From contig JAGGXB010000112.1 of NCBI GenBank assembly GCA_021163245.1, positions 1 through 42,771 on the forward strand: a DNA stretch of 42,771 bases, in the 5' to 3' direction. This document shows positions 7,880-13,094 of this stretch, in pieces. The translations under genes were made by a program, and so were the position numbers. The stretch's first letter is position 1; each line of letters begins with the position of its first letter. Under the pieces are notes generated by a model. That model did not search any database. It saw nothing but the letters and a program-made list of their open reading frames with translations, and had not been told where the DNA came from. Origin of the DNA: Thermoproteales archaeon (GTDB taxonomy: Archaea; Thermoproteota; Thermoprotei; Thermofilales; Thermofilaceae).

Positions 7880-8875
7880 ATGAAGATACTGGATTTTGGT
7901 ATACTTGTGGTTGATTTAATTGCAGCAGGTTTACCAAATATAGCTGATCCCGGACAAGTGGTTTTTACTCCTAGAGGTATAAAAACTAGAATTGGCGGAC
8001 ATGCAGCAAATTTTTCTATTGATGAAGTAAAACTAGGTCTTGAAGGTAAAAATATAATTGTGATAGGTGCTGTGGGCGACGATGTCTTTGGCAGGTTTAT
8101 CGAAGATACACTTTCGTCGTATGGCTTAGATGTGAGATTAGAGAAAAATGAAGGCGTGGATACCTCAAAAAATCTTATTTTGGTTGTTAAGGGAGAGGAT
8201 AGAAGGTTTCATGTAGATATAGGAGCAAATATTATGCTATCCGTAAAACATATTACGGATGTAATAAAAACAGAGAAACCAGACATCATATACGTAGGTG
8301 CAACCGGATGGTTAGGAGAAGTAGATGATAATCTAAAAGATATTCTAGAAAAAGGGTCTGAAAACGCTATCACATTTGTCGACCCTATAGCTCCATATCG
8401 AAAGAACTGGAGCTATATTCTTCCAGCCTTTGAACATATTCATATCTTCCACTGCAATAATATTGAAGCAAATATGATAACGTCAAAGGAAGATATAGAG
8501 GAGTCAGCCATAGAAATACTAAAGAAAGGAGTACAGATGGTTCTTATAACACTCGGTGAAAAAGGATTATACGCTAGGACAGACTCATGGAGTATTAGAA
8601 TGAATGCATTTAAAGTAGACACAATCGATCCAACTGGTGCAGGTGACGCTTTTTCAGCCGGAATAATTTATAAGATTATAGAGTACGGCATTAGAAGAAT
8701 CGAAGATCTAAGTTTGGACAAAGCCGTAGAAATGCTAATATATGCATCAGCTTCAGGTGCAAGCGCAACTTTAAAGGAGGGAACAACAGAAGGAGTGGAT
8801 AAAAAAACGGTCAATGAAATTATTGAGGAACAGAAAGAAAAAATATTAGCTTCGTTAAAAATAGAAGAGTTTTAG
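7880..8875 (+). CDS. PfkB/ribokinase family carbohydrate kinase
   Basis: A 331-residue kinase with both family signatures. The N-terminal glycine-rich region is RIGGHAANFS at 38-47, and the C-terminal anion-hole and catalytic motif is DPTGAGDAFSAG around 250-261, with D256 as the catalytic base. The ATP-dependent phosphoacceptor could be a ketohexose, ribose, a nucleoside or 2-keto-3-deoxygluconate; the specificity residues are not diagnostic to me. AGGTG lies about 5 bases before the ATG. The stop is one base from the end of the convergent alcohol dehydrogenase gene. Given the sugar dehydrogenases around it, a role in sugar catabolism is plausible. Confidence 0.92.
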   Translation: MKILDFGILVVDLIAAGLPNIADPGQVVFTPRGIKTRIGGHAANFSIDEVKLGLEGKNIIVIGAVGDDVFGRFIEDTLSSYGLDVRLEKNEGVDTSKNLILVVKGEDRRFHVDIGANIMLSVKHITDVIKTEKPDIIYVGATGWLGEVDDNLKDILEKGSENAITFVDPIAPYRKNWSYILPAFEHIHIFHCNNIEANMITSKEDIEESAIEILKKGVQMVLITLGEKGLYARTDSWSIRMNAFKVDTIDPTGAGDAFSAGIIYKIIEYGIRRIEDLSLDKAVEMLIYASASGASATLKEGTTEGVDKKTVNEIIEEQKEKILASLKIEEF

Positions 8876-8876
8876 A

Positions 8877-9905
8877 TTATACTTCAAACCCAATCTGAAT
8901 TTTTATAACTCCCTTTTCACGTTTTAGCATTCTCTCAAATCCTTCCTTTATTCTCTCTAAAGGTATCACGTCAGAGACCATGTCTTTCACATTCACTTTT
9001 TTATGTTCTATAAGTTTTATAGCCTTAGGATAATCCCATCTGTAAACAAGACTACCAAAGACGTTTAATTCCTTATTCACTATGTTCATTATATTGAATT
9101 CAGTTTCAGGTTTCTCAAAAACTCCTACAACTACAACATTTCCTCCCTTTCTAGTATATTCTAGGGCTTGTGTAAACGTTACATTACTACCTACAGCCTC
9201 AAAAGAAGTATCAACACCTAGCCCATCAGTCAAACTATAAATTGTTTCTTTAATGTTATCTTTCTTAGGGTTTAATGCATAGTCTGCACCAAGTTTTCTC
9301 GCAAAATCAAGTTTCCAATCAACTATATCAGTAATAACTACAGTATCCGCACCCAATGCTTTAGCAACTTGCATTATAAGTAAGCCTATAGTTCCAGCAC
9401 CAAGAACCAAAACCGTATCACCGATTTTTCCAGAACGTCTAACAGCATGTACAGCCACAGCTGTCGGCTCAACCATGGCGCCTTCTTCAAAAGTCATCGA
9501 CTCAGGGATCTTATATACCCATCTCTCCTTTACCGAGATATACTCAGCAAAAGCACCAGTAGTCTGGGCTCCTAAAACTTTAAGGTCTATACAGTGATTA
9601 TATTCATTTTTCCTGCAGAAATAACATTTACCACATATCTCTAACGGTTCAACAGTTACTCTATCTCCTTTTTTGAATCTTGTAACATTTTCACCAACCT
9701 CCTCCACAACACCAGAAAACTCATGACCTGGAATAATTGGTATGATAAAATCTGGATGTTTACCTTTATATGCATGTAAATCACTTCCACAGATACCACA
9801 CCTAACGACACGTATAAGAACATCGTTTGGTCCGGGAACAGGTTTATCAACCTCAACAATCTGTATATCATAAGGTCCTTTTAGAAGGGCTGCTTTCATA
9901 TTCAT
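8877..9905 (-). CDS. Zinc-dependent medium-chain alcohol/polyol dehydrogenase
   Basis: A protein of 342 residues in the threonine/sorbitol dehydrogenase branch. Catalytic zinc ligands are C39 (CGICGSD) and H61-E62 (PGHEFSG). The structural zinc is held by C91, C94, C97 and C105. The NAD(P)-binding glycine motif is GAGTIG. I start at the ATG at 9905; a TTG at 9908 is also in frame, and the ATG at 9899 (MKAALL) is an alternative. Bases 9658-9734 are identical, on the opposite strand, to part of the paralogous gene at 12078-13094, although the two proteins differ widely elsewhere. Likely substrate: a polyol or an amino acid such as threonine. Confidence 0.92.
   Translation of the reverse strand: MNMKAALLKGPYDIQIVEVDKPVPGPNDVLIRVVRCGICGSDLHAYKGKHPDFIIPIIPGHEFSGVVEEVGENVTRFKKGDRVTVEPLEICGKCYFCRKNEYNHCIDLKVLGAQTTGAFAEYISVKERWVYKIPESMTFEEGAMVEPTAVAVHAVRRSGKIGDTVLVLGAGTIGLLIMQVAKALGADTVVITDIVDWKLDFARKLGADYALNPKKDNIKETIYSLTDGLGVDTSFEAVGSNVTFTQALEYTRKGGNVVVVGVFEKPETEFNIMNIVNKELNVFGSLVYRWDYPKAIKLIEHKKVNVKDMVSDVIPLERIKEGFERMLKREKGVIKIQIGFEV
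9658..9734 (-). repeat. 77-base perfect inverted repeat, copy 1 (within dehydrogenase gene)
   Basis: The reverse complement of this stretch is identical over 77 bases to 12240-12316. It covers the codons for the GHEFSG zinc-ligand region and the following VVEEVG and FKKGDRV segments. Identity breaks immediately at both ends, including at codon level. Because synonymous positions are also identical, shared protein function alone does not explain it. Confidence 0.93.
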
Positions 9906-10007
9906 CAATTTATATTTTTTACATGATTCAAAAATAAGTTTTTATTTTTTTCGGAAGAAAAGTTATTATTGGATGTTAATTTTTATTATCTATCAAGGGG
10001 AAAATAA

Positions 10008-10508
10008 ATGAAAGGAGCACTATTTGTTGCAATCGTGGCTGTGTTAACTGCTGTCACAATGGTTGTAACGATGGCTTTCCAATTCTATGTTCCGCAAACT
10101 AAGGGATATATTAATTTCGGAGATACAATCGTAATTTTTTCAGGTCTATTGTTAGGAGGTCATCCTGGATTTCTTGTCGGTGGAATAGGATCGGCACTTG
10201 CTGACATATTGAGTGGATATGGTAATTGGGCTCCTTTTACATTTGTCATAAAAGGCATAGAGGGTTTTACAGTTGGTTTCTTTTCAAAGAAGTCAAAAAA
10301 GCTTTTATATCTAGGAGCAGTGCTTGGGGGTGTCGAAATGGTTCTCGGATACTTTATAGTTGAATACTTTCTATATGGTTTAGGGGCTGCTTTAGCCGAG
10401 TTACCTGGAAATATCATGCAGGCAGGTATAGGTATCTTTGTCGGTGTAGGTCTCTATAAGATTGTTATCAGAACTATAGGAGAAAAGGTGAAGCTTTTTA
10501 AGAGCTAA
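10008..10508 (+). CDS. ECF transporter S component (PF07155-type vitamin transporter subunit)
   Basis: A 166-residue membrane protein with five to six helices. The segment GYINFGDTIVIFSGLLLGG, followed by GGIGSALADILSGYGNWAP and TFVIKGIEG, matches the pattern of the COG4720/PF07155 family of substrate-binding ECF subunits. These bind a vitamin or related small molecule and need a shared energising module (EcfA, EcfA', EcfT), none of which is in this window. AGGGG lies seven bases before the ATG. The 98-base leader region is too short and plain to call a riboswitch. The 3' end overlaps the convergent membrane protein gene by 11 bases. The ligand is unknown. Confidence 0.85.
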   Translation: MKGALFVAIVAVLTAVTMVVTMAFQFYVPQTKGYINFGDTIVIFSGLLLGGHPGFLVGGIGSALADILSGYGNWAPFTFVIKGIEGFTVGFFSKKSKKLLYLGAVLGGVEMVLGYFIVEYFLYGLGAALAELPGNIMQAGIGIFVGVGLYKIVIRTIGEKVKLFKS

Positions 10509-11127
10509 ACATAAAAATCTTAAAAGCTACGAATACATCATTAATGAGATCGAGTATGAATATGCTTGCAATAATCCAGAAACCGATAATATAGCTTATT
10601 CTTATAACTTGGGGATATTTTACTTTATTTTTAACCAATGAATATGTGCTTGATGTTATTGAGAAGACAACTAACAATGTAGTAATGTTTATTATAAATC
10701 CTGAAAGATAAAAGAGTATTCTAGAAGGCATTTTATGGAAGAATATATTTGTTTCATATGCTACATGTAGAATATCTACGAGTATTATCGTTAATATTTC
10801 TGCTGATATAGAAGAGAATAAAGCTATAAAGACAGGGATTTTTATATCTCTCCATACCTCGTCTCGATTCTTGGTTTTTTGTATCGCTATAAAGGAGGAC
10901 GTTATTGAGATAGCTGTTAAAAAACCTGAAAGATATAAACATGTAAAGAAGTCGATTGTACGGAATGAGGCTATAATTGTATTTATCTTTTCGACTATGA
11001 AATTTGTCTTTGTAACTATAAAGGAGTACATTAATGCTGAGACCGAAGCATTTAGTAATATTCTAGCTAACAAAAGAGATATAAACGATATGACTGCTAG
11101 AACTAGACTAGCAACTCTACTTGACAT
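10498..11127 (-). CDS. Integral membrane protein with five to six TM helices, unknown
   Basis: Family not recognised. The 209 residues are mostly hydrophobic, with about five to six spans and small basic loops. An AATTTAAAAATAA element lies upstream of the ATG, and AGGTAAAA immediately precedes it. The 3' end overlaps the ECF S-component gene by 11 bases. The minus strand is preferred because the plus-strand readings over this interval are short and charged with no recognisable domain, while the minus-strand reading has a clear membrane pattern. No function can be given; adjacency to the S component is convergent and need not be meaningful. Confidence 0.6.
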   Translation of the reverse strand: MSSRVASLVLAVISFISLLLARILLNASVSALMYSFIVTKTNFIVEKINTIIASFRTIDFFTCLYLSGFLTAISITSSFIAIQKTKNRDEVWRDIKIPVFIALFSSISAEILTIILVDILHVAYETNIFFHKMPSRILFYLSGFIINITTLLVVFSITSSTYSLVKNKVKYPQVIRISYIIGFWIIASIFILDLINDVFVAFKIFMFSS

Positions 11128-11176
11128 TTTTACCTAGAATAAAAATTATTTTTAAATTATTAAAAATATTGCTCTG

Positions 11177-11962
11177 TTATCCTAATATAACATCCATATA
11201 TAGCATAATTATGAATCCTATTATGAGACCATACGTCGCATACCTTTCATGTCCCACTCTATTAGTCTCAGGTATTATTTCATCACTTATGACGAAGATC
11301 ATGGCACCAGCTGCAAAACCCATAGCGTAAGGCAATACTTGATGAGCCATAGCTACAGTTGCTGCTCCAATTAAACTTAGTGGAGGTTCTACAAGGCCAG
11401 ATATTATAGCTATGAGAAACGCATAAAATCTACTCTTATTTCCTTCAGCTAGAATAGAAAAACCTACTGATAAACCCTCAGGAATATTTTGTAACCCTAT
11501 CGCTAACATCAAAACTACAGCATCATCTAGATTTCCAGACCCGAACCCTACTCCTACAGCGAGACCTTCAGGCATATTGTGAAGCGTTATGGCTAAAACA
11601 AAGAGCCATATTCCTCTAAGCCTACTAGATGATATTCCTTCTTTACCTATTATCATATGCATATGAGGAATAATCATGTCTGCAAAGTTGACAGATAAGG
11701 CACCTAGTACTATACCTATGATAACAGGATTTATGCCTCCTTTCTCTATACCTGGCACTATAAGGCTAGTAAAGCTTGCAGCAAGCATGACCCCTGCCGC
11801 AAACCCTAAACCTATATCACTTACTCTCTCAGGTAGTTTTTTAAAAAATAGTACAGGTATAGCACCTATAGCATTTAACAGTGCTGTTATACATCCGCCT
11901 AACAAGCCTAGTAGAAGAAGATTATTGCCTGCTAAGCTTAAAAGAATGTTTTCAAATACCAT
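11177..11962 (-). CDS. ZIP family divalent metal transporter
   Basis: A 261-residue transporter of the ZIP superfamily, moving Zn2+, Fe2+ or similar ions into the cytoplasm. The paired metal-site helices are plain: HNMPEG at 128-133 and QNIPEG at 158-163. Eight hydrophobic helices fit the family, and a histidine-bearing loop (PHMHM, 99-103) lies between helices 3 and 4. A TTTATAAA element lies about 31-38 bases before the ATG, in the gap shared with the divergent alcohol dehydrogenase gene. Co-location with a zinc-dependent dehydrogenase is suggestive but unproven. Confidence 0.93.
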   Translation of the reverse strand: MVFENILLSLAGNNLLLLGLLGGCITALLNAIGAIPVLFFKKLPERVSDIGLGFAAGVMLAASFTSLIVPGIEKGGINPVIIGIVLGALSVNFADMIIPHMHMIIGKEGISSSRLRGIWLFVLAITLHNMPEGLAVGVGFGSGNLDDAVVLMLAIGLQNIPEGLSVGFSILAEGNKSRFYAFLIAIISGLVEPPLSLIGAATVAMAHQVLPYAMGFAAGAMIFVISDEIIPETNRVGHERYATYGLIIGFIIMLYMDVILG

Positions 11963-12077
11963 AGTATCATTTTATGAGAATCTTATCTTAGGTTTATAAA
12001 TAATTGGTTTGAGTTTCGAATAGATAAGAGATATTATTTTTAGTTTAATTAAAACTATATTTTCATTAGTGATAAAA
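11963..12077. promoter_or_regulatory. Divergent promoter region between ZIP transporter and dehydrogenase genes
   Basis: The 115-base gap drives two genes outward. On the minus strand TTTATAAA lies about 31-38 bases before the ZIP start. On the plus strand an AATTAAAA-type box lies about 25-32 bases before the ATG at 12078, with GTGAT just before that codon. No clear operator palindrome is seen. Confidence 0.4.
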
Positions 12078-13094
12078 ATGAAAGCTTTTATCATAAATAA
12101 ACCATATGAGTCGGAAGTTGGAGAATATAGTCTTCGCGATTTAAAGGAGGATGAAGTGTTAGTAAAGGTAAAGGCATGTGGTATTTGTGGGACTGATATA
12201 CATATATTTAAAGGAGAATTTCCTGCAAAGTTTCCAGTAATTCCAGGTCATGAGTTTTCTGGTGTTGTGGAGGAGGTTGGTGAAAATGTTACAAGATTCA
12301 AAAAAGGAGATAGAGTGGCTGTAAACCCAAATATTCCATGTGGAAAATGTTATTATTGTAAAAGAGGCTTAACTCATTTTTGTGTAAATTGGAATGCTAT
12401 CGGTATCCATTTACCAGGTGCATACGCAGAATATGCCATTGTACCGGAGGCGAATTTGTACAGTTTTCCAGAATATTTAGAGTTTGAAGAAGCGGCTTTT
12501 GCAGAACCGGTAGCTTGTGTCCTACATGGCCAAGATCTTATAAACATTAGTTTAGGTGATACTGTTGTTGTATACGGTTTAGGGCCAATAGGACTACTTC
12601 ATTTACAGCTATCTATGATAAGGGGTGCATCAAAAGTTATAGGTGTAGATATCGTTGAGAAAAAATTGAAAATAGCTGAGGAACTGGGTGCTGAGTATGT
12701 TTTTAATGCTCTTGAAAAAGATGTACCTGAGGAAATAAAGAAAGTTTTAGGTAGGGGTGCTGATGTAGCAATTGAAGCTTCAGGAAGCATCAAAGCTTTT
12801 GAAGACGCCATTAAATCAGTAGATTATGGTGGGAAAGTACTTGTTTTTGGAGTTGCTCCTGAAAACGCTACTGCTGCTGTGAAGCCTTTTAACATATATA
12901 GGAGAGAAATTGAGATAATTGGATCATTTACAAACCCGTTTACGACTGGTAGGGCGGTTAAAATTTTGGCGTCAAGGAAGATAAATGTAAAGAAGATAAT
13001 CTCACATAGAATCTCTCTGGATGAAGTACAAGAATATTATAAGAAAATAATGGATAGGGATAAAACCATTTTAAAGGTAATCGTAAAACCCTAG
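12078..13094 (+). CDS. Zinc-dependent medium-chain alcohol/polyol dehydrogenase (paralogue)
   Basis: A 338-residue enzyme of the threonine/sorbitol dehydrogenase type. Catalytic zinc residues are C37 (CGICGTD) and H58-E59 (PGHEFSG). The structural zinc is bound by C88, C91, C94 and C102, and the nucleotide-binding motif reads GLGPIG. A GTG at 12069 is in frame, but GTGAT then serves as the ribosome binding site of the ATG at 12078, so I chose the ATG. The protein shares an identical 26-residue block with the paralogue at 8877-9905, encoded by a 77-base identical DNA stretch; outside it the two are clearly diverged. The stop lies two bases from the convergent antiporter gene. Confidence 0.92.
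   Translation: MKAFIINKPYESEVGEYSLRDLKEDEVLVKVKACGICGTDIHIFKGEFPAKFPVIPGHEFSGVVEEVGENVTRFKKGDRVAVNPNIPCGKCYYCKRGLTHFCVNWNAIGIHLPGAYAEYAIVPEANLYSFPEYLEFEEAAFAEPVACVLHGQDLINISLGDTVVVYGLGPIGLLHLQLSMIRGASKVIGVDIVEKKLKIAEELGAEYVFNALEKDVPEEIKKVLGRGADVAIEASGSIKAFEDAIKSVDYGGKVLVFGVAPENATAAVKPFNIYRREIEIIGSFTNPFTTGRAVKILASRKINVKKIISHRISLDEVQEYYKKIMDRDKTILKVIVKP
12240..12316 (+). repeat. 77-base perfect inverted repeat, copy 2 (within dehydrogenase gene)
   Basis: Identical to the reverse complement of 9658-9734 without a single mismatch or gap, including a run of six A. Just upstream the copies read GTA versus ATT; just downstream they read GGCTGTA versus AACTGTT. The flanks belong to the same protein family but are not near-identical. 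Confidence 0.93.

Follow-up and report, generated by a model that had tools for sequence, protein, structure and literature searches.

Two genes for medium-chain zinc dehydrogenases in the window, i.e., the whole stretch of 42,771 nt that was analyzed, encode proteins with an identity of 41%, and share 77 identical bases in inverted orientation. How did this short stretch become identical in two otherwise widely diverged genes, and does the inverted arrangement have a function of its own? The relevant features are the following:

8877..9908, minus strand: gene A, medium-chain zinc dehydrogenase (ADH_N and ADH_zinc_N; family profile matches)
9652..9740, minus strand: extended arm, 89 nt, 96% identity, comprising the exact core and six bases on each side
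9658..9734, minus strand: block in dehydrogenase A, very probably converted, 77 nt, the codons for IPGHEFSGVVEEVGENVTRFKKGDR and two further bases
10008..10508, plus strand: ECF transporter S component (PF07155, Pfam match), between the arms
10498..11127, minus strand: membrane-type protein without Pfam or NCBIfam match, between the arms
11177..11962, minus strand: ZIP-family metal transporter (PF02535, Pfam match), between the arms
12069..13094, plus strand: gene B, medium-chain zinc dehydrogenase (family profile matches)
12234..12322, plus strand: extended arm, partner of 9652-9740, 89 nt, 96% identity
12240..12316, plus strand: block in dehydrogenase B, very probably converted, 77 nt, identical to the block in A

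The 77-nt tract in the dehydrogenase genes

The extended arms are the sole inverted pair that a repeat search detected between positions 8500 and 13500. The exact 77-mer has only two matches in the genome's own assembly (1.95 Mb, 148 contigs), namely the blocks of A and B, and both copies are in frame within open genes. The block covers GHEFSG, the zinc-ligand region of the medium-chain dehydrogenase family, and the motif of this region is among the most conserved of the family.

In a codon alignment of A and B all 77 nucleotides are identical inside the block, versus 50% nucleotide identity outside, and the ends are abrupt. At positions with the same amino acid the codons are identical in 25 of 25 cases inside the block, in contrast to 51 of 112 cases outside (Fisher P = 5e-8), and the same is true for four-fold sites (11/11 versus 19/53). 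Independent draws on the local codon usage would give 48.2 identical codons outside the block, and the 51 that were observed are at this level, therefore the synonymous sites outside are saturated. Based on the same local usage, the probability that all 25 block codons match, given their amino acids, is about 10^-9.5. A preliminary description of the locus had reported the identical bases with their abrupt ends, the wide divergence directly beside them, and the identity of synonymous sites, which made selection on the protein a poor account. The exact match and the codon alignment agree with it on all these points, and synonymous divergence is far from equal along the two genes, being saturated outside and zero inside the block.

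Neither gene reached the cut-off of a named NCBIfam equivalog; the best matches below the cut-offs were scyllo-inosose 3-dehydrogenase and L-threonine 3-dehydrogenase. A gene for a PfkB-family sugar kinase (7880-8875) faces gene A in convergent orientation, a single base separating the reading frames, and it is possible that the two belong to a common sugar or polyol pathway. In G030, a genome of another family, an A-like and a B-like dehydrogenase gene lie next to each other in divergent orientation, about 130 bp apart (L007, 347-1357 and 1492-2529). This layout looks as if the three transporter and membrane genes had been inserted later in the lineage of the window, or had been lost in the other.

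Comparison with related genomes

The tract is specific for this genome. Within each of nine other genomes that contain an A/B pair the longest common run of A-type and B-type DNA has a length of 10-14 nt, i.e., the A/B tract does not recur in these related species. For 481 dehydrogenase pairs from different genomes the longest shared run has a median of 11 and a maximum of 34. The preliminary description had named conservation of the 77 bases in many unrelated family members as an argument against conversion; the 77-mer was not found in the 26 other genomes of the order, and the best partial match is 85% over 39 nt. A scan of genome contigs gave mostly remote bacterial members of the family, none of them closely related, and therefore no date for the event.

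The closest orthologs of A (67% identity) and B (58% identity) are both encoded in G026. Compared with them, the identity of A is 80% in the part that precedes the block and 64% in the part that follows it, and that of B is 54% and 59%, respectively. The log-odds for the A versus the B lineage are +40 for the N-terminal part of gene A and +159 for the rest, and -39 and -192 for the corresponding parts of gene B. The signal is present up to the block: in the 25 codons before and after it the values are about +26 and +14 for A, and -21 and -20 for B. Within the 77-nt block the value is -1.0, calculated with comparison genomes of other genera, and this value near zero points to neither gene as the donor. 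The lineage signal is therefore lost in the block alone and is kept in both flanks, and the proposal of recent gene conversion across the GHEFSG region is well supported by the codon and lineage tests. The block is not a MITE-like mobile repeat, as only two copies exist in the assembly and it aligns to the orthologs without an insertion.

Similar tracts in other genes

The preliminary description missed that the A/B tract belongs to a wider pattern. In a survey of 954 kb of the 1.95 Mb of the own genome, the window included, no more than three exact repeats in coding sequence had a length of at least 42 nt and both copies on one contig, and one of them is the A/B tract. The second is a direct repeat of 70 nt in the CDC48 gene on contig C37, where the Walker A segments of the domains D1 and D2 agree (L186, 8260-8329 and 9079-9148), with identical codons at 23 of 23 positions inside the tract versus 46 of 88 outside. 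The third is an exact direct repeat of 69 nt in the Walker A segments of two neighboring ABC exporters on C38 (L187, 9444-9512 and 11239-11307; 22/22 codons inside, 81/176 outside, the latter at chance level).

In addition, 400 kb were surveyed in each of two other genomes. In the single-contig relative G010, neighboring OppD/OppF-type ATPase genes share an exact C-terminal segment of 103 nt (contig 1, 115957-116059 and 116934-117036, in L218), with 34 of 34 identical codons inside and 63 of 129 outside. The names OppD/OppF and CDC48 were assigned by reading sequence motifs, without a family search. The 400 kb of G043, a control from another family and too small a sample for a comparison of rates, contained long exact repeats that were mostly duplicates of elements or genes with similar flanks, or CRISPR-like. 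The tracts have several features in common: they are about 45-105 nt long, lie on the protein motif with the highest similarity at a distance of 0.8-2.6 kb from each other, and occur in both orientations, and the gene order is unchanged.

Concerted evolution of the CDC48 Walker A segments

A CDC48 gene was found in every genome searched. An exact run of 46-92 nt, with a constant spacing of 819 nt, is common to the Walker A segments of D1 and D2 in 19 of 22 genomes from the order, and a twentieth genome has two runs of 34 nt with one mismatch between them. The common sequence varies from species to species. In the 25 codons around Walker A, codon identity at positions with the same amino acid is 88% with the own partner, in contrast to 41% with the partners of other species. 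In the neighboring segments the respective values are 31-49% and 27-42%, and thus genome-wide codon bias has only a small effect. Neighbor-joining trees gave the same picture: for the Walker A block, D1 has the D2 of its own species as sister in 18 of 22 cases, whereas the count is 0 of 22 with each of four flanking segments. A species-specific identity of two parts of one gene is the expected outcome of recurrent conversion, and protein constraint could not bring it about. A crossover of the direct repeats would cost the CDC48 gene 819 bp, and we therefore infer that these conversions were non-crossover events.

Beyond the order, a D1/D2 run of at least 44 nt is sporadic (4 of the 32 CDC48-type genes examined). 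D1 and D2 of other families are alike at 17-23 of 25 residues in the Walker A segment, i.e., they are more different, and this may limit pairing there. In the own and in many draft genomes CDC48 genes end at contig ends (L148 on C3, 4017-4129; L186, 9408-9520; the end of C50), as if paralogous CDC48 copies shared assembly-breaking tracts. A report of order-wide concerted evolution of 25 codons in CDC48 was not found in the open-access literature, most subscription papers being outside this coverage, and concerted evolution of such a motif throughout the order appears to be unreported.

Alternative explanations

It is highly likely that the 77-nt identity resulted from a recent, short-tract, non-crossover ectopic gene conversion between old paralogs, and that it is one instance of an order-wide process. 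Other explanations have been considered. A third dehydrogenase copy, which has since been lost or is absent from the assembly, might have converted both genes. The block is about equidistant from both ortholog lineages, and the genome is 93% complete, both of which speak for this reading. However, only five ADH_N genes are present in the assembly, the three besides A and B are remote, no other similar copy exists, and two events would be required instead of one. This explanation is very unlikely.

It had also been suggested that the two arms form an invertible switch, which flips the 2.5-kb segment and thereby exchanges the first 58 or so codons of the dehydrogenases. The geometry, two exact inverted arms at a distance of 2.5 kb, is what speaks for it, and an inversion of the segment is physically possible, but nothing points to its occurrence. 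Both parts of A and both parts of B match their own ortholog lineage, therefore the assembled arrangement shows no exchange of the 5' parts, and the contig is continuous through both copies. Matches to the tyrosine recombinase family (PF00589) are confined to contigs C138, C61, and C146, with none on the contig of the window. Furthermore, the arms are protein-motif sequences of paralogs, and the recurrent conversions of this type in CDC48 cannot have involved a crossover. We thus regard a switch as highly improbable, and this part of the preliminary description is not upheld.

An artefact, in which similar reads of both genes were merged and one sequence was placed twice, deserves attention in a draft metagenome-type assembly of 148 contigs, the more so as 77 is a commonly used assembler k. 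The ends of contigs C21 and C51 are near-duplicates, about 97% identical pieces of a gene for a B-family DNA polymerase (L171, 1-353 and L202, 1-353), which suggest that the assembly is a population composite and hint at a strain mixture. Nevertheless, all four flanks of the blocks are unique and are assigned to the right lineages, 77 nt is less than the usual read length, merging would require segments that were already nearly identical, and tracts of the same kind, those of CDC48 D1/D2 included, are present in the single-contig genomes G005, G010, and G012. The ends of contigs C49 and C59 overlap by exactly 127 nt, the only such overlap seen, and this points to 127 as the k of the assembler, in which case the 77-mer would be spanned by k-mers that have unique flanks. 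Assembly collapse is unlikely to underlie the identity, and such an artefact has in our view scarcely any probability.

It is barely conceivable, even for a motif so highly conserved, that the 77 bases were kept identical without copying, by selection for a DNA or RNA signal or for the protein motif. Other genomes encode the same dehydrogenase motif with different codons, in contrast to the identical synonymous sites of A and B, the block contains no Rfam element at gathering score, and the codons shared in CDC48 are species-specific.

Proposed mechanism

For the preferred reading, ectopic gene conversion between A and B, the following course of events can be proposed. In the course of homologous repair or of template switching, one dehydrogenase gene would have been copied from a short strand of the other. 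Mismatches would have been corrected to a single sequence, and the event would have been finished without a crossover, leaving the gene order unchanged. The GHEFSG region may be where the two genes are alike enough to pair, and where the 25 swapped-in residues would still be functional. The placement on motifs could also reflect selection on which conversions survive, rather than the sites where they start. The same process, active throughout the order, would homogenize motif-length segments between nearby paralogous sequences, with the CDC48 Walker A pair as a persistent case. The route that we favor is strand invasion or template switching, with imperfect homologs in close vicinity as the partners, followed by short-patch mismatch resolution.

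One factor that may permit such events is the lack of MutS-type anti-recombination. The MutS_V profile had no match in any of the 27 genomes of the order that were searched, and 11 of 14 control genomes were positive in the same search. In most other families of the class no MutS was detected either, and the CDC48 pattern is only occasional there; therefore, its absence is at most permissive and is insufficient alone. With moderate confidence we propose that continual non-crossover conversion of about 45-105 nt between nearby imperfect matches takes place in the whole order and harmonizes the DNA of catalytic motifs, with CDC48 as its permanent reporter and the A/B tract as a recent product.

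Relation to known systems and significance

Long-lasting concerted evolution by gene conversion has been described for 26 prokaryotic genes, seven of which are archaeal, all in methanogens (PMC6053082), and it has been long-lasting and recurrent for mtrA-1 and mtrA-2 (PMC4632066). As in these systems, paralogs of one genome are closer to each other than to their orthologs, synonymous sites included, through conversion that is repeated over long periods. However, whole genes or a whole domain are affected there, in contrast to a unit of about 25 codons here, and in CDC48 the partners of the conversion are two domains within a single gene. The A/B tract, which was observed in a single genome, is a further case of the known gene conversion between paralogs.

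In Sulfolobus acidocaldarius, discontinuous short-patch conversion has been shown genetically (PMC4471258). Hyperthermophilic archaea lack MutSL, whose normal effect is to stop recombination when the sequences have diverged (PMC4471258). The undetected MutS in the order would fit this description, and the short, localized, non-reciprocal transfer in archaea without MutSL is the likeness between the two. In contrast to the experimental situation, in which transformed DNA recombined with the chromosome, the tracts described here are natural and concern paralogous sequences of one chromosome. Archaeal gene conversion is also known as an intermolecular process from the polyploid Haloferax volcanii (PMC8223754, PMC11276520), but there it equalizes the copies of one locus, whereas here different loci are involved that are only partly alike. 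Invertons, invertible DNA driven by recombinases (PMC11892184), likewise consist of a segment flanked by inverted repeats. At the A/B locus, however, a PF00589 search found no tyrosine recombinase gene nearby, the alternative orientation was not seen in the assembly, and the arms are the coding sequence of a motif in paralogs.

Trees or domain histories that rest on motif regions of this kind can give a distorted picture, and homogenized paralogs may be sites at which metagenome contigs are interrupted. The tracts offer a sequence-level readout of recombination between mismatched DNAs in archaea without detectable MutS, a stated open problem of DNA repair in hyperthermophiles (PMC4471258). CDC48 provides one scorable site per genome, which makes the rate, the tract length, and the spread of ectopic conversion measurable across archaea.
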